From Acetobacterium sp. KB-1 (GTDB lineage: Bacteria; Bacillota; Clostridia; Eubacteriales; Eubacteriaceae): a stretch of 64,000 nucleotides of DNA. The translations under genes were made by a program, and so were the position numbers. A model generated the notes under the pieces. It saw only the letters and a program-made list of their open reading frames with translations. It did no database searches and had not been told where the DNA came from. The DNA is taken from the NCBI RefSeq assembly GCF_003260995.1, contig NZ_CP030040.1:1843620-1907619 (forward strand), written 5' to 3'. Shown here in pieces: positions 3,083 to 19,915 of this stretch; the first letter of the stretch is position 1; the number at the start of each line of letters is the position of its first letter.

Positions 3083-4546
3083 ATGTTTTTGGGTATTGCC
3101 GCAATCTTAGCAACAATTATTTTTATCATCAATATAACGCTGACATTCACTATTATTTTTTTGGAACGAAAAAACCCTCAAAGCACTTATGCCTGGTTAT
3201 TATTTCTATGGATGGTACCCATTTGGGGCTTTTTATTTTATATTCTCTTCTCGCAGAACTTAACCAAACGTAAAATTTTTAAGTATAACACCCCTGAGAA
3301 TATTCAGTACCATCATTTGTTAAGACTGCAGCAACGGTCACTTTCCCGGATTATTGCGATCGATCCCGATAGTCCCATTGAAAAATACCGTCATTCCATT
3401 GAATTTCATTTAAATGTCAGTGAATCTATTTACACCAGTAATAACACGGTGGAAATTTTTACCGATGGAAATCAGAAATTTGATGCTCTTTTTCATGCCA
3501 TGGAAGCCGCACAATCATCGATTCATCTGGAATATTATATTATTAAAAACGATACCCTGAGCGCTAAATTATTTGATATTCTGACGAGAAAAGCGCTTGA
3601 AGGCGTCGAAGTCCGGCTGCTTTTTGATGCCATGGGCGGTCGTTATTTACCCCGCACGGTGCTTGATGGCTTTGAGGCCGCCGGGGGGAAAATCGGTATT
3701 TTTTTTCCATCCCGCTTTAAGATGCTAAATCTCCGGGTTAACTATCGCAACCACCGCAAAATTGTGATCATCGACGGTGTCACCGGCTTTGTCGGTGGGT
3801 TTAACATCGGCAACGAATATCTGGGCCTGGAGAAAAAAATGGGCTATTGGCGGGATACTCATTTGAAGCTTGTCGGTTCAGCCGCCTACGAGCTGCAGCA
3901 TCGCTTTCTGCTCGATTGGCGCGCCAGTTCCAGTGAAGAGTTCCTCGCTGATGATCAAAAACTTAACCAATATTTCCCCACCATCCCCCAAAAATCCGGA
4001 GGTGGCATCCAAATTGTTTCGAGTGGTCCGGATAACCTCAACCAGCAAATCAAACAGGGATTCCTACGGATGATTAATAACGCTGAGGATTATATTCTGA
4101 TTCAATCGCCCTATTTTGTACCGGATGAAAGTATTCTGGAGGCTTTAAAAATTGCCTTGTTGTCCGGTATTGATGTCCGGATTATGATACCTAATAAGCC
4201 GGATCATATTTTTATTTACTGGGTCACCCTGGCCTATGTCGGCGAACTGATTGAATATGGGGCCAAGATTTTTATTTATGAAAATGGCTTTCTTCACGCC
4301 AAAACCATTGTGGTCGATGATGCGCTCTGTTCAGTGGGCTCCTGTAACTTTGATATCCGCAGCTTTCGGCTTAATTTTGAAACCAACGCCTTTATTTATG
4401 ACCGTAAGGTTGCGATAAAACTTAAAAATATCTTTGTTGAAGATATTAAAAAATGCACCTATTATAACAAAGAACTCTACCGGAACCGCAGCCGACGAGT
4501 CAAGGTTAAAGAATCGATTTCGCGACTGTTTTCGCCTTTACTGTAG
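3083..4546 (+). CDS. cls: Cardiolipin synthase (phospholipase D family)
   Basis: 487 residues, normal for bacterial Cls. The enzyme condenses two phosphatidylglycerol molecules to cardiolipin and glycerol at the membrane. Two N-terminal membrane helices (about 5-25 and 35-60) are followed by two phospholipase D modules, each with an HxK(x4)D motif: HRKIVIIDG in the first half and HAKTIVVDD near the C-terminus. Both catalytic histidines are present. Shine-Dalgarno CGGAGG lies just before the ATG. The gene is a single transcription unit with its own promoter and terminator. Confidence 0.95.
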   Translation: MFLGIAAILATIIFIINITLTFTIIFLERKNPQSTYAWLLFLWMVPIWGFLFYILFSQNLTKRKIFKYNTPENIQYHHLLRLQQRSLSRIIAIDPDSPIEKYRHSIEFHLNVSESIYTSNNTVEIFTDGNQKFDALFHAMEAAQSSIHLEYYIIKNDTLSAKLFDILTRKALEGVEVRLLFDAMGGRYLPRTVLDGFEAAGGKIGIFFPSRFKMLNLRVNYRNHRKIVIIDGVTGFVGGFNIGNEYLGLEKKMGYWRDTHLKLVGSAAYELQHRFLLDWRASSSEEFLADDQKLNQYFPTIPQKSGGGIQIVSSGPDNLNQQIKQGFLRMINNAEDYILIQSPYFVPDESILEALKIALLSGIDVRIMIPNKPDHIFIYWVTLAYVGELIEYGAKIFIYENGFLHAKTIVVDDALCSVGSCNFDIRSFRLNFETNAFIYDRKVAIKLKNIFVEDIKKCTYYNKELYRNRSRRVKVKESISRLFSPLL

Positions 4547-4577
4547 AGTCAACTACTATTTTCCGTTTTTCATCCCA

Positions 4578-4608
4578 CCAGCCGTTTTTTAAAACAGCTG
4601 GTTTTTTT
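4578..4608 (+). terminator. Terminator of cls
   Basis: Stem CCAGC/GCTGG with an A/T loop, followed by eight T residues. Confidence 0.8.
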
Positions 4609-4620
4609 TGCCAAAAACGA

Positions 4621-4652
4621 TTGACAAAAATATACTATGCATTGTATAGTAT
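4621..4652 (+). promoter_or_regulatory. Promoter with overlapping palindromic operator, PadR operon
   Basis: -35 TTGACA (4621-4626) and -10 TATAGT (4645-4650). Between and over the -10 lies an inverted repeat with half-sites ATACTAT and ATAGTAT (4632-4652). The position would let a bound repressor block RNA polymerase, as expected for PadR autoregulation. Confidence 0.65.
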
Positions 4653-4673
4653 TATGTGAAAGGGGGTATCTAC

Positions 4674-5006
4674 TTGGATATTCAATTAAAACGGGGGTTA
4701 CTGGAAATTTGTGTACTGACGGTACTCAATCGGGGCGATTCTTATGGCTATCAAATCATCAAAGATGTGAATCCCTATATCGAAATCTCCGAATCCACCC
4801 TTTATCCCATCCTGAAACGACTTGAAACAAACCAGTGCCTGCTGGTTCACGCTGTTGAACATAATGGCCGACTTCGAAAATACTACAAAATAACCGCAAC
4901 CGGTCGTCATCGAATTATTGAATTTATTGACAACTGGAAAGAGGTCATGAGTGTATATAATTTTATTAATGAAGAAATGAGGAACCATAGCGATGAACAA
5001 ATCTGA
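4674..5006 (+). CDS. PadR-family transcriptional regulator
   Basis: 110 residues. The sequence from MDIQLKRGLLEICVL through YGYQIIKDV and STLYPILKRLE is typical of the PadR winged-helix domain; a short C-terminal helix for dimerisation follows. The frame is open from a GTG at 4656, but AAAGGGGG (4658-4665) is the ribosome site, so the TTG at 4674 is the better start and gives the canonical family N-terminus. It overlaps the DUF1700 gene by 14 bases. PadR / DUF1700 / DUF4097 is a recurrent Firmicute trio, in which PadR probably represses the unit; the inducer is unknown. Confidence 0.9.
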   Translation: MDIQLKRGLLEICVLTVLNRGDSYGYQIIKDVNPYIEISESTLYPILKRLETNQCLLVHAVEHNGRLRKYYKITATGRHRIIEFIDNWKEVMSVYNFINEEMRNHSDEQI

Positions 5007-5583
5007 ATTTTTATTAAGTTTGACCGATAAGCTTGACCCATTACCCCAACATGAGATCGAAAAAACCCGGGGTTTTTATGCCGAAATGATTGATGACCGG
5101 ATTGAAGATGGCATGAGTGAAACGGAGGCCGTCGCCGCCATTGGTGATATTGATACCATTATCCAGGATACTCTGCTGGAACAACCCTTACCGGCTCTGA
5201 TGAAGGCCAAGATCCAGCCAAAATCCAGCTTAAAGATTTGGGAAATTGTCCTGATTGTCCTGGGCTTCCCGGTTTGGTTTCCCTTGCTGGCTGCTTTCTT
5301 TGTTGTCATTCTTTCTGTTTATCTCTCGGTTTGGGCGGTTATTATATCCCTTTATGCAACAGTTGCTGCCTTTGTGCTCGGTGGCCTGGCCGGGATTTTT
5401 AGCATCTTTTTTGCCCCGTCTTTTGTTTATGGACTGTTTGTCCTTGGTTTATCCCTTGCCTGCCTGGGCATCGGCGTTCTATCCTTTTTCGGTGTCACAA
5501 AACTATCCCACTGGTTGATCTTGCTTACCCGAAAATTTCTACGCTTTGTTAAATCATTATTTATTAAAAAGGAGGTCCTGTAA
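4993..5583 (+). CDS. DUF1700 (HAAS-domain) membrane protein
   Basis: 196 residues. The N-terminal ~75 residues form the helical HAAS-type domain (YAEMIDDRIEDGMSE, AVAAIGD), followed by four or so hydrophobic segments between about residues 80 and 185. This is the usual DUF1700 plan. It is translationally coupled to the padR gene upstream (14-base overlap), and its stop codon directly abuts the next ATG. Members are thought to sense or relay envelope state together with DUF4097 proteins; the function is not established. Confidence 0.85.
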   Translation: MNKSEFLLSLTDKLDPLPQHEIEKTRGFYAEMIDDRIEDGMSETEAVAAIGDIDTIIQDTLLEQPLPALMKAKIQPKSSLKIWEIVLIVLGFPVWFPLLAAFFVVILSVYLSVWAVIISLYATVAAFVLGGLAGIFSIFFAPSFVYGLFVLGLSLACLGIGVLSFFGVTKLSHWLILLTRKFLRFVKSLFIKKEVL

Positions 5584-6540
5584 ATGGAACCAATCAAAAA
5601 AATAATCATGCTGACTGCCGGTGGTTTAATTATCCTCGGATTTATTATTGCCATGGCCGCTTTTGCCCTGGGCGGATTTAACTGGAGGACCTTAAACGCC
5701 AGTCTTCCAGACGAGAAAAAAAGCTACACCTATGATCTGGCCGGTGTTTCAAATCTAAGTCTTAGTGAATTGGACACTGACGTAAAGATTGTGGGAATCG
5801 ATGGCGATCAGATAAAAATTGAATGCTATGAGAACGAAAAGGATTCCTATACCATAAAGCTGTTGGAAAACGGTAATCTGAGCATCGATCGTTCCCTGTT
5901 TAAACATTGGTACGAACAGATCGGTTTTTTAAATTTCAACCTGCAAAATAAAAAAAGAGAGCTGACCGTGGCCATTCCCAAAAAGTTCAGCGGTGAACTT
6001 GAAGTTTCCACCGTCAGTGGCAATCTGATCGTGTCCGACCTTGATCATTTAAAGGATGTTAATACCAGCACTTCTGCCGGACAGATCGATCTGAAAAACC
6101 TTAGTATCGCCCAACAACTTGCAGCTTCCACCATCAGTGGTAATCTTGATCTCAGTCAGGTCAGTGCCGGCGGCAACCTGGAACTGGGAACCGCCAGCGG
6201 AACGATCCAGGTAAGTCAGGGAAAAACGGACGGATCTCTGTCTGCTTCCTCCCTAAGTGGTGCCATGAAATTTGACGAAACCACCATTGCCGGACCGACC
6301 ACCATTGAAAACAGTAGTGGCAATATCCAGTTTAATAAGCTATCCGGTCATGATTTTTACTTCTCCAACTTAAGCGGCAATATTCGCGGCAGTCTTCTTG
6401 GCGATCCTGCCACCTATACCATCACCGCCGACAGCCTCAGCGGCAAGCAGAATCTCCCCAACTTTGGAAACGGGAAAAATAGTCTGGAGGTCTCAACCGC
6501 CAGCGGCAATATAGATATTGAGTTCCTGCCAGTTAATTAA
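5584..6540 (+). CDS. DUF4097 beta-repeat envelope protein
   Basis: 318 residues. One N-terminal membrane anchor (about 8-30) is followed by an extracellular part. From about residue 130 it is built of repeating short beta units with the core S-x-S-G-N/T (VSGNL, ISGNL, ASGTI, LSGAM, SSGNI, LSGNI, ASGNI), typical of the DUF4097 right-handed beta fold. Shine-Dalgarno AGGAGGT lies inside the end of the preceding gene. As third member of the PadR operon it is probably an envelope-associated component; no catalytic motif is seen. Confidence 0.85.
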   Translation: MEPIKKIIMLTAGGLIILGFIIAMAAFALGGFNWRTLNASLPDEKKSYTYDLAGVSNLSLSELDTDVKIVGIDGDQIKIECYENEKDSYTIKLLENGNLSIDRSLFKHWYEQIGFLNFNLQNKKRELTVAIPKKFSGELEVSTVSGNLIVSDLDHLKDVNTSTSAGQIDLKNLSIAQQLAASTISGNLDLSQVSAGGNLELGTASGTIQVSQGKTDGSLSASSLSGAMKFDETTIAGPTTIENSSGNIQFNKLSGHDFYFSNLSGNIRGSLLGDPATYTITADSLSGKQNLPNFGNGKNSLEVSTASGNIDIEFLPVN

Positions 6541-6566
6541 ACTATTTCCATTTCGCAACCACAAGT

Positions 6567-6604
6567 GACCCGGGCAAAGAAATTATTTTGCCCGGGTCTT
6601 TTTT
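6567..6604 (+). terminator. Terminator of the PadR operon
   Basis: GC-rich stem GACCCGGGCAAA/TTTGCCCGGGTC, followed by TTTTTT on the plus strand. Confidence 0.9.
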
Positions 6605-6633
6605 ACCTTTTTGTCGTTTTGCCGGGTGCACCC

Positions 6634-6674
6634 TAAAAAAGACGACCCGAGTTCCGAAGAACCCGAATCGTCTT
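6634..6674 (-). terminator. Terminator of the hyd unit
   Basis: On the minus strand, GACGATTCGGGTTC pairs with GAACTCGGGTCGTC around a short loop, followed by TTTTTT. It lies 190 bases past hydG. The 6675-6863 stretch before it holds an open but startless frame (see findings). Confidence 0.85.
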
Positions 6675-6863
6675 TATGCTCTGTTTCTCAACCATCCTGC
6701 TCAATCATTTAAGTCGAATTCATCAAGTTGATCGTGACCGCTTTTTTTGACAATGTGACTGATTTCTTCTTGGGTCAATGACCGGCACAAAATATCGACC
6801 TCGCGGTTTATTAAGCTCTTTAAGAAAAAAGAGTTTTCGGAGCTTTCACAGGCACCGCCAATA

Positions 6864-8282
6864 CTAGAATCTGAAATCCCGTTTGCCGGAGCTCAGCTCA
6901 GTTAGATGATCCGTTGCAATGCCACGGACCTTGTCACTGGGAATCGAAGCCAGTTCCCGGGCAATGGTTTTTTCACCATTATATTTGGTCGCCGGGGCGG
7001 CATAGTCTTCTAAATATTCTTTGAGGGTTATAATCGCGTTAGGCTGACAGCAATTGGCAATCTGACCGGATTTAACCAGTTGCATAAAGCGGTCGCCGGT
7101 GCGGCCTTCCCGATAACAGGCGGTGCAGAAGCTGGGAATATGTCCCATTTCTAACAGCCAGTTGACAATATCATCGAGTTTTCTGGTATCATTAAGCTCA
7201 AATTGGGCTGAGTTTTGATCTTCCGGTTCCGGCGTATCGTAACCGCCGACACTGGTGCTGGAACCACCGCTGATCTGCGAAATCCCCAGCTTTAACACCC
7301 GTTCCCGGGAAGCCTGGGACTCCCTAGTCGAAATGATCATACCAGTGTAGGGGACGGCAATGCGCAGCACCGTAACAATTTTTTCAAAGATGTCATCGGA
7401 AATCGCATTGGAAAAATCATCAGTGTCAATATCATCCGCCGGGCAGATCCGGGGGACCGAGATGGTGTGGGGACCAACCCCCATCGCGGCTTCTAAATGC
7501 TCGGCATGCATAAGCATTCCGACAAAATCATAGCGGTATTTATTCAGACCAAAAAGGACCCCAATCCCGACATCATCAATGCCGCCTTCCATGGCACGAT
7601 CCATCGCTTCTGTGTGCCAGGCGTAATCACTCTTGGGGCCGGTGGGATGGAGCATTTCATAATTCTCCTTATGATAGGTTTCCTGGAACAAAATATAAGT
7701 TCCGATTCCAGCTTCCTTCAACTGGCGGTAGTCCTCCACCGTGGTCGCCGCAATGTTTACATTAACCCGGCGGATGTCGCCATTTTTATGTTTGATGCTG
7801 TAAATCGTCTTGATGCTTTCTAAAATGTATTCCAGGGGATTATTCTTTGGATCTTCACCAGCTTCCAGTGCCAGCCGTTTATGACCCATATCCTGAAGAG
7901 CAATGACCTCTTTGGCAATTTCTTCCTGGGTCAATTTCTTGCGGCTGATGTTTTTATTTTTAAAATGATAAGGACAGTAGACACAGCCATTGACACAATA
8001 GTTCGAGAGGTAAAGCGGGGCAAACATAACAATACGATTACCATAAAACTTTTTTTTGATATCCATCGCCAATTTTACCAAACGATCATTTTGTTCTTTT
8101 AGCTCGCAGGCCAGTAAAACTGCCGCCTCGCGATGGTTGAGTCCCTGATAAGTCCCTGCACGCTCAATGATTTCATTGAGCAGGGCGACATTTGTTTTGT
8201 TTTCTTCTGCATAGGCCAGCGTTTCTAAAATCTCCTGGTCATCAATAAATTCAACCGCTTTTTTCGACATGACATTATACAT
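6864..8282 (-). CDS. hydG: [FeFe]-hydrogenase maturase HydG
   Basis: 472 residues. HydG is a radical SAM tyrosine lyase that makes the CO and CN ligands of the H-cluster from tyrosine. The radical SAM cluster motif CVNGCVYC (CX3CX2C) lies near residue 95. The C-terminal auxiliary-cluster cysteines typical of HydG are present (CTAC ... NCC), which separates it from ThiH, and the protein ends RDFRF as HydG proteins do. Shine-Dalgarno TAGGAG fits the ATG at 8282. It is the last gene of TM1266-like / hydE / hydG; hydF and the hydrogenase genes are not in the window. Confidence 0.95.
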   Translation of the reverse strand: MYNVMSKKAVEFIDDQEILETLAYAEENKTNVALLNEIIERAGTYQGLNHREAAVLLACELKEQNDRLVKLAMDIKKKFYGNRIVMFAPLYLSNYCVNGCVYCPYHFKNKNISRKKLTQEEIAKEVIALQDMGHKRLALEAGEDPKNNPLEYILESIKTIYSIKHKNGDIRRVNVNIAATTVEDYRQLKEAGIGTYILFQETYHKENYEMLHPTGPKSDYAWHTEAMDRAMEGGIDDVGIGVLFGLNKYRYDFVGMLMHAEHLEAAMGVGPHTISVPRICPADDIDTDDFSNAISDDIFEKIVTVLRIAVPYTGMIISTRESQASRERVLKLGISQISGGSSTSVGGYDTPEPEDQNSAQFELNDTRKLDDIVNWLLEMGHIPSFCTACYREGRTGDRFMQLVKSGQIANCCQPNAIITLKEYLEDYAAPATKYNGEKTIARELASIPSDKVRGIATDHLTELSSGKRDFRF

Positions 8283-14060: not shown

Positions 14061-15275
14061 TTATTCAATTGTTACTGTTGTTCTTGCTGGTGTGATGGAT
14101 TTGACCAAAGCCTGCGATAAATTGGTCTGAATTGGCAATTCATATTCTCCCGGGGCTAAATTCGTACAATCCACAAAGGCTTCAATCTGCGCTGTATTTA
14201 AACTGTTTAGGACACTACTGGCACCCTCTAATTTTACGATAACCCGGGAATCCTTAATTTTTGACATCACCTGACCAGCGGCGAGATTTTTTGCACTTAC
14301 CTTATCAAGGGTAAAACTCTTTTCCACCGGGCTTTCAATGGCAACGGTCACCTTAACTTTTCCACTATCATCGAGGAAATAGAATCCCGTCGGGGCAGTA
14401 AGACTAATATCTTTGGTAAATGTTTTTGATTGTCCCGACACGTTAATGGGATCGATGGCAATCGTCTCAATGGTATTTAGCAGGTCCTCTTTGGCTCCGA
14501 TTATGACCTTTGAAGGTTCAACCATAATCTCTGTGACAATGGTCCCATTGGCCGGTTCTCCGACGGTGGAAGGCGTCATTCCTACGGACTTTGTTTTTCC
14601 TAAAAAAATCTCAGTTGGAACAACATTTGGCAATATTTCCAGATCATTAATCGGACTCCCGTCCACATCATAAGCCGTAACATCCAGGTACCTTGTCGTA
14701 TCGGTTGCCAGTCCGTTAACATTGGCGGTTGCAGTTATTTTATCAATTCGCGTAATCGACGCTTCCGGACCTTCCACTTCCACTTTTTCCTGTGATTTAG
14801 CCGAGATCACCGACAGATCATTGGCTGGTATTCCTTCCAACACAATCCCCACATCCACGGCTTCCTTTATGATATTATCCACTTCAATCGAAAGAGTCGT
14901 CGGGTTCATGCTACTGATAATCACCGAATTGGCCAGGCCTTTCACCTCAACATCCAGATCATAGATCCCTTTTTCGTCAATATCACTGAGATCTACTTCA
15001 GCGGTAATTTCTTTCATAATAATATTTCTTAAATTCCGGTCCGTTCCCTTTACCTGCAAATTGAGATAATAATTTTTATTATCGACCAGCACCAAATTTT
15101 TTTCTGCGAGGGATTCCACATTGGTTAAGGTTATCGGGATACTGTTATAATCCTGGGTGATCAGCATATCAGCATTACCATTGACCATAAACCAAAGGGT
15201 GATGGCAATGCCCACTGCTGCAATCAGCCGAAATAATCGTTCATGCAAGGCTATCTTCTTTTTATTTGCTGCCAT
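14061..15275 (-). CDS. cdaR: YbbR-domain protein, CdaA regulator
   Basis: 404 residues. One N-terminal membrane helix (about 10-32, LFRLIAAVGIAITLWFMV) followed by repeated YbbR beta domains on the outer face (about four between 50 and 404). CdaR proteins bind and modulate the membrane diadenylate cyclase CdaA. The ATG at 15275 is chosen because GGGGGAG lies directly before it; the open frame upstream lies inside cdaA. Overlap with cdaA is 14 bases, so the two are translationally coupled. glmM, often the third gene of this unit, is not downstream. Confidence 0.9.
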   Translation of the reverse strand: MAANKKKIALHERLFRLIAAVGIAITLWFMVNGNADMLITQDYNSIPITLTNVESLAEKNLVLVDNKNYYLNLQVKGTDRNLRNIIMKEITAEVDLSDIDEKGIYDLDVEVKGLANSVIISSMNPTTLSIEVDNIIKEAVDVGIVLEGIPANDLSVISAKSQEKVEVEGPEASITRIDKITATANVNGLATDTTRYLDVTAYDVDGSPINDLEILPNVVPTEIFLGKTKSVGMTPSTVGEPANGTIVTEIMVEPSKVIIGAKEDLLNTIETIAIDPINVSGQSKTFTKDISLTAPTGFYFLDDSGKVKVTVAIESPVEKSFTLDKVSAKNLAAGQVMSKIKDSRVIVKLEGASSVLNSLNTAQIEAFVDCTNLAPGEYELPIQTNLSQALVKSITPARTTVTIE

Positions 15276-16110
15276 CGATTCTCCCCCAGAGCTTATGAAT
15301 CCACCCGCTGTCTGTGTTGCCGTCCTCATTGATGATATAGTTTTCCAGAATAATTTGCTTGAGCACCTCGATGATCACATCCTGAAACAAGGTGCCCTTT
15401 GATGCATAAGAAATTTGACCCGTTTCTTCGGAGACAATAATGACCAGCGCGTCAGATTTTTCTGTCATTCCCAAACCAGCCCGGTGCCGAGTTCCAAATT
15501 CACTGCCCAAATCGCGATTGTCCGAAAGCGGCAGCAAACACCCTGCCGCCCGGATCTGCCGGGACCATAGTTTAATAATCACTGCGCCGTCATGAAGAGG
15601 ACGGTTCGGCGTAAAAATATTCTCCAGTAGTTCACTGCTGATATCCGAATCCAGCTCGGTTCCGGTTTTAACGATATTATTAAGCCCGGTATCTTTTTCC
15701 AGAACAATCAGTGCACCAGTCTGCTCGCACGCCAGTTTGTCCACCGCTTTAATGATTTTTTCGACGTCTTCTTCGAGAAAGTCCATCGATGGTTTCTTCA
15801 TCATCTCTTTAAAAATACGATTATTTCCCAGTTGTTCCAAGGCTGAGCGAAACTCCGGCTGAAATACCACCACAATGAAAATAAACGCCCAGGTAAAGGC
15901 GCTGGTAATAATTAAATTAAGGGTGGTGAAACCCAGCCATTCACTGACAGGCGACAAAAAAAGCAACACAATCAAGCCTTTAAAAACCTGTTCGGCCTGG
16001 GTTCCCCGTATCCACATTAATAACTTATAGACAATAAAAGAAATAATGACAACCTCGATGATACTGGCTCCCGTTATTCTTGATTGTAAATATAATAAAA
16101 ACTCTTCCAT
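15262..16110 (-). CDS. cdaA: Membrane diadenylate cyclase
   Basis: 282 residues. Makes cyclic di-AMP from two ATP; the messenger controls potassium and osmolyte transport. Three N-terminal membrane helices (to about residue 90) precede the DAC domain, which shows both signature motifs: DGAVII and GTRHRAG. The frame is open to 16128, but the first six codons are the ribosome site (GAGGGA), so the ATG at 16110 (MEEFLLYL) is the start. Operon with cdaR. Confidence 0.93.
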   Translation of the reverse strand: MEEFLLYLQSRITGASIIEVVIISFIVYKLLMWIRGTQAEQVFKGLIVLLFLSPVSEWLGFTTLNLIITSAFTWAFIFIVVVFQPEFRSALEQLGNNRIFKEMMKKPSMDFLEEDVEKIIKAVDKLACEQTGALIVLEKDTGLNNIVKTGTELDSDISSELLENIFTPNRPLHDGAVIIKLWSRQIRAAGCLLPLSDNRDLGSEFGTRHRAGLGMTEKSDALVIIVSEETGQISYASKGTLFQDVIIEVLKQIILENYIINEDGNTDSGWIHKLWGRIDGSK

Positions 16111-16305
16111 TTTAATTCCCTCATTCATTCGTTACTATTAATTATACACTACCTAAGCCATTTCGTGAAACGGAAATTGAAATTTTTCATATTTTTACAG
16201 TCCCCATTAAGAATTTTTTTAAGGGAGACTTGTGAAATTCATGCTAAAATTGGCTTTAATTAAAACTCTTCCCAATCTTTTATAAAGAAAAAGGAGCTCT
16301 TTTAC

Positions 16306-16737
16306 ATGAAAAATCATCTGTTTTATTTACTCCCCAAAAGCGAAACTGTTTTTTTAACCAATACCGATTCATTCAACCAGGCCTACAATATGTTTGTGAT
16401 TACAAATTATACGGCCCTGCCAGTGATTAACAAAAAAGGACAATACGTGGGAACCATCTGTGAAGGTGACCTGCTACGGGTTTTATCCCTGAGTCTGACC
16501 CACCCGGAAATCAATTTAGATGCTTTTGAAATCAAAGACATTGACTTCAAAATAAATCTGGAAGTGGCCAGGGTTAATGAAAGTTACGAACATCTGGTAG
16601 AACTGGCTGTGAAGCAGAACTTTATTCCCCTCGTTGATGATCAGGGAATTTTTATCGGTATTCTTAGACGCCAGGAACTGATCAAAGAACTGATCAATTT
16701 TTTATCTGATAAGGTCGCTGAACAAGACGTCGGTTAA
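16306..16737 (+). CDS. Stand-alone CBS-domain-pair protein
   Basis: 143 residues with two CBS motifs (ALPVINKKGQYVGTICEGDLL at about 40-62 and IPLVDDQGIFIGILRRQEL at about 110-130) and no other domain. CBS pairs bind adenosine nucleotides, in some cases c-di-AMP. The gene is divergent from cdaA, so a link to c-di-AMP signalling is an attractive but unproven inference. Shine-Dalgarno AAGGAG, eight bases before the ATG. Confidence 0.85.
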   Translation: MKNHLFYLLPKSETVFLTNTDSFNQAYNMFVITNYTALPVINKKGQYVGTICEGDLLRVLSLSLTHPEINLDAFEIKDIDFKINLEVARVNESYEHLVELAVKQNFIPLVDDQGIFIGILRRQELIKELINFLSDKVAEQDVG

Positions 16738-16854: not shown

Positions 16855-19275
16855 TCACTGTTTATGTTGTTGTCTTAATCGTTTTAAAATCACCCCTCCA
16901 CTGCGGGGACAGGGAATGGCCCCGGCTTTTAATAACGCTTCATATCGACCAATCAACCGGTCTGGTGGCAAATTGCTAAACGCTTGCTTCAAACCGTCCT
17001 CAAGTAAAAAGCCAGCCAAACTCAGATAGACGTCGACATCTGTTTCGGAAACTGCCTCCAGTGCAGGAATAATGCGTTGCAAAAGAGCCAGATCGATGAC
17101 CTCTAATTCGCTATACAAACCTTCAACTCCGCTGTTGATGCCAAAAGCCAGGATTTCATTTTTCCCCCGATACCCCATTGGGCACTCATGTTTTATGAGT
17201 AGCTGTTGTACCTCATTGAGCAAGACCATGAGACGCTCCAGAATTTCCGGCAAGCCCTTAGCCTGACTATGGATTTTAAAGACACTGTTCTCCCAGTCAC
17301 TGTCACCGGTAGGACTGCCATAATCGGCAAAAACGCCAATTTCAACCACCGGCATCCGAATCACATTGCCGCTATCAATCACTCGGGAATGGACCGGAAA
17401 ACTGTCGGGACCCTCATTGATGGTTGCAACAATATAAAGGTTATCCGGAAAGCTTAAGTTACCGTATTCGCGAAAAGCTGTAATATCTGCGCCAAAATCT
17501 TCGCGTTTCAAAAAAGGCTCCTTGCTGCCATTAATTCCTTCTAACAAAAGTCGCAGATAATCGGCAGCCGGAGACTGGTCCATTTCATCGAGCATGAAGA
17601 AATGGGGTTTATCCGGATATTCTTTGGCTGCTTTTAAGATCAGCATGATGGGTCCGGGGATAAAGTGCCCACGACTGTCCAGATGTCCCAGTAGTGGAGT
17701 ATGATCCTCCCAATTTTTTCCCACCAGCAGCCGTTTAAATCGACCGTTTTCCTGGTTCGCACCAATTGCCTCAGCAAAGAGCCGGGGAAAACTGGTTTTG
17801 CCGCTGCCTACCTGGCCTTTTATGATCACAAATGGTTTTGATTTTATCGACAGATAATAGGTCTTAATTAATTCCGCCGGATAATAATAGCCTTTGTCAC
17901 CCATTTTTACCTGAACCAACTGAAGATAGGGGGGAAGGTAGTCGTTCTTTGCCGGATAGCGGGTAAATGATTTGCTCTCCGCCGCTTTCGTTTCTGCTTT
18001 GAATTGAATGTCATCCACATCAGCAGACGACAGGTTTGTTTCAGATTCTGCCATCACGACCTCACGTAAAGTACTGATCGCTGCATGCTTCGGCTGTGCC
18101 GGGGCTTCCGAGCCGCTTTCCGCCTGATTTTTGTTTTCCACACCGGGACGCTCTTCACCGATGCTTTCAAACAAAACGGTCTCTGCCGGTACCGGTTGCG
18201 ATCCTTGCGGTGGCGGCGTCTGTTCCTCAAGTACAACTTCGGGCTTTTGCTTTATTTCTGCTATCATTTCATTTTCGACCTTGGCGTCCTGTCCTTTTAT
18301 AATTTCTTCGCTTGGCTCATCACTGACTGCTGTTTCATCAGCCGTCTGACCCTTCGTCAAACATAACTTATACATTTTTCTAAACGCTTCAAATTCAGCG
18401 ATCAGCACCTCATCTTCTGGCATCTCTGTTTCGGTATATTCGCGATAGCAGACGATCCCCGACACCAGGCTGGCATTCGCCAGCAAAACATCTTTATGAT
18501 TGGTTCGATAGTGTTCTGTCACAAGGTTTTTTCGGTACGCAGCGGCTTTTTCCGCCAGACTGCGGACCCCCATCCCTTCTTCACCATAGACGATGGCCAG
18601 ATAAAGCTTACGGCTGTCCATGGCCAGAAGATAAGCCAGATAGAGGTCGCTATCATCTAGAGCCTGTTTATCGCGTACTTTAACCCAGGGGATCTCGGCC
18701 CATTGGGTGTCTCCGGCAAAGCCCCGTACCTGATAGTGTCCGGATCGGATGGTTTTTAAGTTTTCAATCACTTTGGGAATCTCTTCGGTGATCGTCTCTT
18801 TAAAAGAAAAACGAAAGTCTCTGGGATAATAGTTGGGATAACCGGTAATCCACTTTAACAACAGCTCCTGGAGTCCGGCCGTTGGCGGAGTAGCGATTAT
18901 CGGCATGTCACTTATTTTTTCATCACTATTTTCTTCATCGGCCATTATTAAGCGCAGATGAAAAACTTCGTTGGCTTTTATTATTTCCAGCTTTGGCGTT
19001 TTGGACGCATCCGGATCACCCTGAAACCACGATTCAAAATCAGGAAAGGCTTCACCCAGTTTGCGTATCAGCACCTTGCTCCATTTAAGTTTGGTATCGC
19101 CTTCGGTTTCCAGATAAGAAGGATATTCGCGATTCTGATAAATAATTGCCAGTCGTTCTCCGGGATTCCCAAAAAAGCTGATCCGTTCTTTTGGAATAGT
19201 CATCTCGGTATTAACAAAGTCCGATAATTCTGTTGTTTTGATCATTCGATCCGATCCTAATAATTCCCAGCTCAT
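16855..19275 (-). CDS. McrB-like AAA+ ATPase with MrcB_N-type domain
   Basis: 806 residues. About 1-110 is unassigned. About 130-300 resembles the MrcB_N/DUF3578 domain (GFAGDTQWAEIPWVKV, then LYLAYLLAMDSRKLYLAI). About 310-440 is a Pro/Glu-rich linker. About 450-760 is an AAA+ domain of the McrB/dynein-like class with Walker A GQVGSGKTS (487-495), Walker B FFMLDEMDQ (559-567) and a sensor-like IVATINEG (615-622). In Type IV restriction, McrB proteins translocate DNA for the nuclease McrC, but no mcrC or other nuclease is nearby. The partner is a YjbQ-fold protein just upstream. A second possible start is Met11 behind AGGA. The function is open; defence is one possibility. Confidence 0.7.
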   Translation of the reverse strand: MSWELLGSDRMIKTTELSDFVNTEMTIPKERISFFGNPGERLAIIYQNREYPSYLETEGDTKLKWSKVLIRKLGEAFPDFESWFQGDPDASKTPKLEIIKANEVFHLRLIMADEENSDEKISDMPIIATPPTAGLQELLLKWITGYPNYYPRDFRFSFKETITEEIPKVIENLKTIRSGHYQVRGFAGDTQWAEIPWVKVRDKQALDDSDLYLAYLLAMDSRKLYLAIVYGEEGMGVRSLAEKAAAYRKNLVTEHYRTNHKDVLLANASLVSGIVCYREYTETEMPEDEVLIAEFEAFRKMYKLCLTKGQTADETAVSDEPSEEIIKGQDAKVENEMIAEIKQKPEVVLEEQTPPPQGSQPVPAETVLFESIGEERPGVENKNQAESGSEAPAQPKHAAISTLREVVMAESETNLSSADVDDIQFKAETKAAESKSFTRYPAKNDYLPPYLQLVQVKMGDKGYYYPAELIKTYYLSIKSKPFVIIKGQVGSGKTSFPRLFAEAIGANQENGRFKRLLVGKNWEDHTPLLGHLDSRGHFIPGPIMLILKAAKEYPDKPHFFMLDEMDQSPAADYLRLLLEGINGSKEPFLKREDFGADITAFREYGNLSFPDNLYIVATINEGPDSFPVHSRVIDSGNVIRMPVVEIGVFADYGSPTGDSDWENSVFKIHSQAKGLPEILERLMVLLNEVQQLLIKHECPMGYRGKNEILAFGINSGVEGLYSELEVIDLALLQRIIPALEAVSETDVDVYLSLAGFLLEDGLKQAFSNLPPDRLIGRYEALLKAGAIPCPRSGGVILKRLRQQHKQ

Positions 19276-19321
19276 TGCTACTGCCTTTCTCTTCTTCGCT
19301 CATTCTTATGCCTTTATTTTT

Positions 19322-19915
19322 CTATTCATCCTGCTTGAGATGATTGTTTTCTGCTGTTTTTTCGTTGTTTTCTGCTTCCAGCTTTAGTCGATTTTCTTCC
19401 CGTAGACGCCATTCGTTACGCATTTCTTCCTTGATCTGTTCCTGTTCTGCTTCATGGGCTTTACGTTTTTCAAAAATCAATGCCAGTTCTTCGGGCATCG
19501 TTGCTTCCTCATTTTCAGCCAGCGTTGTCCCGGAACTACTGATAAAATACTGGCGCTCGCCCGGACCTTGAAATTCGACAAAATAAATACTCTGGTTTTT
19601 ATCCAAGATCAAGGTTCCATCATGGACCATCACCTGGAGGGATGGCCCAAAAATCGTCGCTTTAACACAGGCGGTTGTCCAACCGGTAAACTTCATGCCG
19701 TCATACTTGGGCATCAGATGGTTTAGTTTATCAAAAAACTCCCGCTGCAGCCGCCAGTCATCGTTGATTGAAATAATCACCGAAGCGGTTCTTTCAGGAA
19801 TTTGAATGTGTACAAAGCCATTTTTTAAACGGGACCCATTGACATACGCCCGCACACTTGCGGTAATATCAATCAGTTGCTCGCTGCTTGTTATTTCAAT
19901 CTTGTTCGCTTTCAT
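19322..19915 (-). CDS. Degenerate YjbQ/UPF0047-fold protein with coiled-coil tail
   Basis: 197 residues. Residues 1-130 follow the YjbQ (UPF0047) pattern: ITASVRAYVNGSRLKNGFV, TASVIISIN, KATIFGPSLQV, VHDGTLIL, YFVEFQGPGERQYF. The histidines normal in that family are absent: the usual HTTA is replaced by ERTAS, and the usual AHIKA by ACVKA. Residues about 145-197 are highly charged and probably coiled coil. YjbQ enzymes have a weak thiamine phosphate synthase activity; this protein is probably not active that way. It lies 46 bases upstream of the McrB-like gene, in the same direction, and probably acts with it. Confidence 0.6.
   Translation of the reverse strand: MKANKIEITSSEQLIDITASVRAYVNGSRLKNGFVHIQIPERTASVIISINDDWRLQREFFDKLNHLMPKYDGMKFTGWTTACVKATIFGPSLQVMVHDGTLILDKNQSIYFVEFQGPGERQYFISSSGTTLAENEEATMPEELALIFEKRKAHEAEQEQIKEEMRNEWRLREENRLKLEAENNEKTAENNHLKQDE

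Follow-up and report, generated by a model that had tools for sequence, protein, structure and literature searches.

The window analysed here, a 64,000-nucleotide stretch belonging to the 3.99 Mb single-contig genome of Acetobacterium sp. KB-1, encodes an 806-residue McrB-like protein, which is probably an McrB co-opted, without its nuclease, as a scaffold that reads DNA. Comparison across the Eubacteriaceae, a family that includes cultured acetogens, shows that this orphan descends from McrB, has lost McrC and residues of nucleotide hydrolysis, carries two DNA-reading folds and is retained under selection. Because the nuclease partner and parts of the catalytic centre are gone, yet most family members keep the gene, a new job for the protein is probable.

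The open reading frame (ORF) is the second of a pair. It follows, after 46 bases on the same strand, a 197-residue ORF for a paralogue of YjbQ (Table 1), a layout whose coordinates and spacing agree with a preliminary description of this DNA. Among the relatives listed, the closest named ones were from Acetobacterium, and a protein search of the window's genome found no second copy. We found no description of this protein family among the listed titles and abstract openings of the open-access literature searched. Electrotransformation of A. wieringae has been reported, and in the available text of that paper the sole mcrB is part of an E. coli genotype (PMC9930230).

Loss of McrC and of hydrolysis residues

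Relatives were collected by scanning genome contigs with two patterns, one in the MrcB_N domain and one around Walker B. As the patterns sit there, the set favours proteins with such stretches. The best 80 of 225 confirmed relatives gave 76 loci. The 21 Eubacteriaceae loci whose protein has an N-terminal B3 domain were classed as orphans and the remaining 55 as other relatives, including L158, which is a true McrB from Acetobacterium. Using an McrC profile built from the McrC of locus L070 and iterated within the loci, we found no McrC beside the gene at any of the 21 orphan loci (18 with at least 2.5 kb downstream), whilst it lay directly downstream in 48 of the 55 other relatives. The seven relatives lacking a directly downstream McrC were L159 and L175, which stop at contig ends, L171, which is broken, L174 and L176, where McrC lies further on, and L143 and L154. 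These last two (5977-7077 and 4055-5161) are AAA-only McrB ORFs of 366-368 residues with the checked motifs intact, from metagenome-assembled genomes (MAGs) titled Chloroflexi; McrC was not seen in the 5.8 and 1.6 kb available downstream of them, respectively.

Not one of the 76 listed ORFs of at least 80 residues in the window matched the McrC profile, and a search of the window's genome for DUF2357, the domain of McrC, was negative at E 0.001. The DUF2357-nuclease partner of an McrBC type IV restriction system was thus not found, and on the whole-genome search a nuclease supplied in trans as McrC was rejected. These results bear out the preliminary description of an orphan McrB-like protein without McrC. 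DUF2357 exceeded the cut-off in two of 40 family genomes, G008 and G016, the latter weakly (27.3 bits, just above the cut-off, in a 1240-residue frame); weaker, sub-cut-off matches occurred in G006 and G030. G008 is an A. wieringae MAG with a separate, true McrBC (L070/L158) consisting of a 749-residue McrB, an 812-residue DUF2357-PDDEXK_7 protein and a methyltransferase. NERD-domain proteins lie close by, making it a defence-type locus in the same genus, in contrast to the orphan.

In the AAA+ domain we scored seven hydrolysis residues: the Walker A Lys and Thr/Ser, the Walker B Asp and Glu, the signature Asn and Asp, and a single Arg-finger place. Short fragments (L110, L159, L171 and L096) and identical AAA sequences were left out. 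All seven residues were present in 53/53 other relatives and in 0/31 orphans. The pattern of loss differs between groups. In the 15 Acetobacterium sequences Walker A and B are always kept and the signature Asn is present in 13, but the Asp and the Arg are always gone. The six sequences of g5 and g9 retain the Arg and have lost the signature Asn and Asp, whilst Walker A is broken in the ten sequences of g3, g4, g6 and g7. Both signature residues survive in only one orphan (L093, which has lost Walker A and B) as against 53/53 others, so that the NxxD/NxD signature of the McrB AAA+ family is lost or incomplete in the other 30 orphans. At the one Arg place scored, position 635, Arg occurs in 7/31 orphans and 53/53 others; the Acetobacterium proteins lack this Arg finger. 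In McrB of T. gammatolerans, mutating the signature Asn or Asp impairs GTPase activity, and mutating either Arg of a pair impairs both GTPase activity and hexamer formation, according to the available part of PMC7680126. The signature Asp also contacts McrC, as described in the accessible text of PMC11090510.

Domain architecture, descent and retention

A model of the full protein shows a B3 domain, MrcB_N, an unstructured linker (residues 310-444), the AAA+ domain and then helices. Its best Foldseek matches were the McrB chains 6hz4/6ut6 (E 9.6e-10). By sequence the resemblance is weaker, at E 0.031 to McrB structures and 14.8 bits to the Pfam family AAA_5 (cut-off 22). Foldseek, profile and tree together place the domain in the McrB-type AAA+ fold. 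The AAA+ domain, called a complete McrB-class one in the preliminary description, is therefore complete in its fold only; as a catalyst it is not, since hydrolysis residues are lost. The MrcB_N-like domain suggested there was recovered with PF12102 (1.6e-16, residues 159-303). Its W192, P196, W197, Y215, D220, Y225 and L226 are invariant in 25 aligned rows (21 orphans and four true McrB).

The B3 domain was revealed by fold comparison alone. No Pfam family covers it (residues 2-116), and its profile found no match among PDB sequences (best E 0.97). A model of residues 1-125 (predicted local distance difference test, pLDDT, 85.6) had as its top Foldseek match 6c5d, the N-terminal domain of H. 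pylori LlaJI.R1 (E 4.7e-5). VIA aligned the two with a Z of 10.0 and a root-mean-square deviation of 3.6 over 103 residues. The next 22 rows (Z 6.4-9.0) are plant B3 domains or the recognition domains of BfiI and NgoAVII, assigned partly by title, and row 24 falls to Z 3.5. The fold at the N-terminus is thus that of B3. By profile, the domain resembles a stretch within four other McrB-type relatives (L115, 30.9 bits; L146, 29.7; L159, 17.5; L138, 17.0). No Pfam match to an EVE domain was found in the 806-residue protein at E up to 1. In the available text of PMC7680126, the B3 domain of LlaJI binds DNA site-specifically and the DUF3578 fold of E. coli McrB binds methylcytosine. Two orphans (L074 6598-10734 and L076 6004-10710) have an N-terminal extension of 300-400 residues ahead of B3 with repeats of the type TVLASGHTADEVSPRPGH, and extensions of similar length occur in L152, L153 and L157.

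A single origin of the orphans is supported by a tree of MrcB_N plus AAA, in which 29 orphans stand on one side of a branch and 27 McrB on the other (support 100/99.8). The gene is present in 35 of 40 Eubacteriaceae genomes (missing from G004, G007, G019, G024 and G031) and in 0/27 genomes of other families of the order at E 1e-30. Incomplete genomes (among them G015, G063 and G004) entered the count without adjustment, and a G019 match was rejected as Lon. G007 keeps a 3' relic (L090 8014-8342; 58 residues, 50% identity, E 7.6e-15), flanked by the CBS gene and a YjbQ paralogue that is intact. Gene order is identical in the window and 11 AAA-bearing Acetobacterium loci: typA-like, YjbQ paralogue, AAA, CBS, cdaA-, ybbR- and serC-like, the names of the housekeeping neighbours being given by eye. 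Together, the retention, the restriction to the family and the conserved order bear out a resident gene of this acetogen family, in line with one suggestion of the preliminary description. A defence island was rejected on the synteny and wide retention, and a mobile origin of the present gene was rejected, with no phage or plasmid record reaching 80% query cover. The viral and mobile matches obtained were one viral contig from the pattern scan (29% identity, residues 453-745), two phage records (AAA part only) and 207 plasmid records.

Selection was estimated as the ratio of nonsynonymous to synonymous substitution rates (dN/dS, NG86) in five orthologue pairs. Values were 0.016-0.17 for AAA, 0.025-0.24 for B3, 0.027-0.24 for MrcB_N and 0.21-0.92 for the linker. 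TypA, used as a control in two of the pairs, gave 0.009 and 0.027. The folded domains are thus held by selection, although less tightly than TypA, despite the lost hydrolysis residues. These values oppose a pseudogene.

Table 1. Features of the locus (positions in the window) and of membrane-type genes at related loci (positions in the locus named)
Feature	Position	Strand	Basis or detail
McrB-derived orphan protein, 806 aa: B3 + MrcB_N + disordered linker + AAA+	16855..19275	-	
B3-type DNA-binding domain, aa 2-116	18928..19272	-	model, Foldseek, VIA
MrcB_N / DUF3578 domain, aa 134-303	18367..18876	-	PF12102 1.6e-16 on aa 159-303
Pro/Glu-rich linker, aa 304-439, predicted disordered	17959..18366	-	aa 310-444 pLDDT <50; dN/dS
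McrB-type AAA+ domain, aa 440-768, C-terminal helices at the lid's place	16972..17958	-	Foldseek; DSSP of model; dN/dS
Walker A GQVGSGKT, intact	17794..17817	-	
Walker B FFMLDEMD, intact	17578..17601	-	
NxD signature remnant N-E-G: Asn retained, Asp gone	17410..17418	-	
Arg-finger place: D-S in place of D-R	17371..17376	-	
YjbQ (UPF0047) paralogue, 197 aa, without the invariant His and further conserved residues; precedes the AAA gene	19322..19915	-	
Charged C-terminal tail of YjbQ paralogue, aa 145-197	19325..19483	-	E164, M165, R166 nearly invariant, E168 invariant in 18 aligned members
Membrane-type protein	L073 10107-10544		
Membrane-type protein	L074 6052-6483		
Membrane-type protein	L075 10355-10771		
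Membrane-type protein	L076 10838-11266		
Membrane-type protein	L077 6354-6743		
Membrane-type protein	L096 6643-7095		
Membrane-type protein	L071 13129-13653		

The YjbQ paralogue and other neighbouring genes

The upstream neighbour had been described as a YjbQ-fold protein, and profile searches agree: it matches UPF0047 (PF01894) at 1e-23 and TIGR00149 with 75 bits (cut-off 67.75). Its sequence matches structure 1xbf at 1.5e-15, which also assigns it to the UPF0047 fold. Two His residues are invariant in 18/18 canonical paralogues (two of 20 stretches, having no usable ORF, were left out), whilst in the 24-member group of this paralogue they occur in 0/24 and 1/24. The conserved Asn, Trp, Asp and Arg of canonical YjbQ are lost from the group as well. 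We take the two His and the further conserved YjbQ residues to be the active site. Judged from its sequence, the paralogue probably does not act as a YjbQ-type enzyme. Its dN/dS was 0.04-0.13 (four pairs). The group also carries an EEMR-E stretch in its charged tail. YjbQ matches in 24 genomes of the order outside the family end by residue 142, and the tail is thus not seen there. Matches to Cmr2/Cas10b were confined to the tail region, the Pfam one below its cut-off, and were taken as composition.

Linkage of the two genes depends on the genus. Of 17 AAA-bearing Acetobacterium genomes, 16 have them side by side and the other (G015) is cut by a contig end. In none of the 18 AAA-bearing genomes of other genera are they neighbours; there the YjbQ paralogue is on another contig, at least about 0.4 Mb away, or not found (G061, G063). 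Both genes occur in 32 of 40 family genomes, AAA only in G015, G061 and G063, YjbQ only in G007 and G019, and neither in G004, G024 and G031. The tendency to co-presence (Fisher p 0.018, not corrected for kinship) makes a functional link possible but not obligate, and G061, a single contig rated 100% complete, has the AAA gene without the paralogue. The residual rate correlation between the two is 0.66, the top of 36 neighbour pairs, of which others reach 0.63 (13 taxa, a weak signal). The preliminary description had proposed a distinct two-gene system, adding that homologues without the partner would count against it. Such homologues exist, so that a fixed two-gene system fails this check, and the linkage is a feature of Acetobacterium. 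An obligate pair was likewise rejected, with each gene found without the other (G007, G019; G061).

Outside Acetobacterium another neighbour recurs. A small membrane-type protein is encoded near the AAA gene on the same strand in 15 of 18 AAA-bearing genomes (five genera), within about 160 bases in ten of them and at about 1.1-2.2 kb in five g5 genomes. It is 129-186 residues long (nine aligned), with an acidic tail and two hydrophobic stretches by eye, apparently a membrane protein with two transmembrane segments. No Pfam match above cut-off was found in the three tested. The gene gave weak matches elsewhere in the genome in 5/19 Acetobacterium genomes, and also in G024 and G031, neither of which has the AAA gene.

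On the other side of the AAA gene in the window, the CBS-domain ORF (16306-16737) is divergent from the cdaA-like gene (by eye; 15262-16128). This arrangement recurs in 12/12 Acetobacterium loci laid out. The ORF scored 59.5 bits against the CbpB model (cut-off 125) and is possibly a sensor of cyclic di-AMP beside its cyclase.

Proposed role, alternatives and known systems

The comparisons show that the protein goes back, within the Eubacteriaceae, to an NTPase that read DNA for a restriction system of the McrBC type; it lost McrC and hydrolysis residues and became a resident, vertically inherited protein. We propose that it now most probably works without cutting. B3 and DUF3578 would hold the protein on particular chromosomal sites, possibly modified ones. 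The AAA+ domain would bind nucleotide (in Acetobacterium) and assemble into a ring or switch that is slow or static, a nucleotide-dependent assembly platform and not a translocase, with the linker and AAA+ surface recruiting other proteins. In Acetobacterium its partner may be the protein derived from YjbQ at the same locus, which is probably non-catalytic. In the five other genera the nearby, apparently membrane-bound protein might fit a connector between DNA and the membrane or divisome. Cell division or nucleoid positioning is a serious candidate for the process served. A bolder version, offered tentatively, is that the protein reads the sequence or methylation of its own genome through B3 and DUF3578, and that its nucleotide-bound, non-cutting ring organises the nucleoid or recruits the YjbQ paralogue, itself a disarmed enzyme, or the membrane protein.

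Several observations weigh against a nuclease-less scaffold. Walker A and B are retained in Acetobacterium, where the protein may therefore still hydrolyse, and PcdA of S. aureus, another McrB without McrC, hydrolyses weakly despite its decay (PMC10602043, accessible text). DNA binding is predicted from modelled folds, and the genomic context points to no single process. The AAA dN/dS exceeded that of TypA in both pairs measured (0.062 versus 0.009; 0.110 versus 0.027). Part of the comparison set was selected by the second scan pattern, which demands a Walker B-like stretch. Finally, a quick AAA-only tree with distant outgroups split the orphans into two groups; we prefer the MrcB_N plus AAA tree because the AAA-only tree has long branches.

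Amongst the alternatives, a positioning factor for division or the envelope, like PcdA, deserves most weight, although we consider it rather improbable. Here the partner of the decayed AAA+ domain would be FtsZ, a protein like DivIVA or one in the membrane, whilst the half that binds DNA would tie the protein to the nucleoid. PcdA itself demonstrates that an McrC-less, motif-decayed McrB can serve division (PMC10602043, available part), the membrane-type gene lies near the orphan in most genomes outside Acetobacterium, and the Acetobacterium locus adjoins the cdaA- and ybbR-like genes named by eye. However, in Acetobacterium that membrane-type gene has only weak matches away from the locus, and there are weak matches in the AAA-less G024 and G031 too; and PcdA, as far as the same text describes it, has EVE and no C-terminal bundle where the orphan has B3, MrcB_N and C-terminal helices. 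A function that is still antiviral, its effector being either the YjbQ paralogue or a nuclease encoded elsewhere, is unlikely. The reader domains are retained, the candidate-defence model PDC-M26A matches (9.2e-14) and G008 shows that the genus also has a true McrBC, but the orphan is widely kept and syntenic, unlike the G008 McrBC near its NERD-domain proteins. Moreover, DUF2357 went unmatched in the window's genome and is above cut-off in only 2/40, the conserved YjbQ residues are lost, and the signature Asp that contacts McrC (PMC11090510, available text) is gone from 15/15 Acetobacterium sequences.

We give equally little credence to a dedicated machine in which AAA+ and the YjbQ-like protein form one obligate complex. 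Adjacency on one strand in 16/17 AAA-bearing Acetobacterium genomes, the presence of both genes in 32/40 family genomes and the highest rate correlation (0.66, with others reaching 0.63) speak for it, but adjacency is 0/18 in other genera, each gene occurs without the other (G007, G019; G061) and G007 has an intact YjbQ paralogue beside the AAA relic. Least credible by far is a decaying restriction relic without function. Residues have been lost in every lineage sampled, five of 40 genomes lack the gene and G007 holds a relic; retention in 35/40 and, in five pairs, dN/dS values of the folded domains clearly under 1 argue the other way.

The co-opted scaffold was also set against known systems, and the earlier statement that no known restriction or defence system matches holds for the types compared. 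The 48 McrC-linked McrBC relatives share the McrB-type AAA+ domain with the orphan, many also MrcB_N, and a B3-like stretch appears by profile in four of the other McrB relatives, but the McrC-linked ones retain all seven residues and McrC, which the orphans do not. Judged by its letters, the N-M-D-E motif of these relatives agrees with the NxD branch as given in the accessible text of PMC11090510. The PADLOC candidate-defence model PDC-M26A, which matches the orphan, also matched two true McrB relatives (5e-50 and 3.4e-48). H. pylori LlaJI.R1 (6c5d, Z 10.0) is an McrB-type restriction protein that likewise has an N-terminal B3 fold, yet LlaJI is a restriction system with site-specific DNA binding (PMC7680126, available text) whilst the orphan locus has no nuclease. 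CoCoNuTs resemble the orphan in having NxD-type McrB GTPases, some with an inactive or missing McrC nuclease; the part of PMC11090510 available also describes them with coiled coils of great length and with either a homologue of McrC or a nuclease associated with the system. The orphan has no McrC, HEPN and other nucleases not having been searched by profile. The neighbour, too, belongs to the fold family of YjbQ/UPF0047 (PF01894, TIGR00149) but lacks the two invariant His and has the charged tail.

The closest parallel is PcdA. According to the accessible text of PMC10602043 it is an McrC-less McrB whose motifs have decayed and whose NTPase activity is weak, and its role is in cell division, together with FtsZ and DivIVA. 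Both it and the orphan have an McrB-derived AAA+ domain, no McrC, decayed motifs, a lineage-restricted distribution and N-terminal reader folds. PcdA carries a pair of EVE domains and has no helical bundle at its C-terminus, whereas the orphan has B3, MrcB_N, a long linker and C-terminal helices; tandem EVE domains were not found in it. The PcdA host belongs to another bacterial family; as architecture and lineage differ, this looks like a separate co-option. If the proposed role is true, the orphan would join PcdA as another bacterial example, probably an independent one, of an McrB turned to cell architecture or epigenetic regulation, suggesting that defence motors have been recycled into resident cell proteins more than once. 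The family-wide set lets this decay be followed genus by genus, the P-loop being kept in some and lost in others. Binding to methylated or site-specific chromosomal DNA without cleavage, should it occur, would make the protein an epigenetic reader in bacteria.

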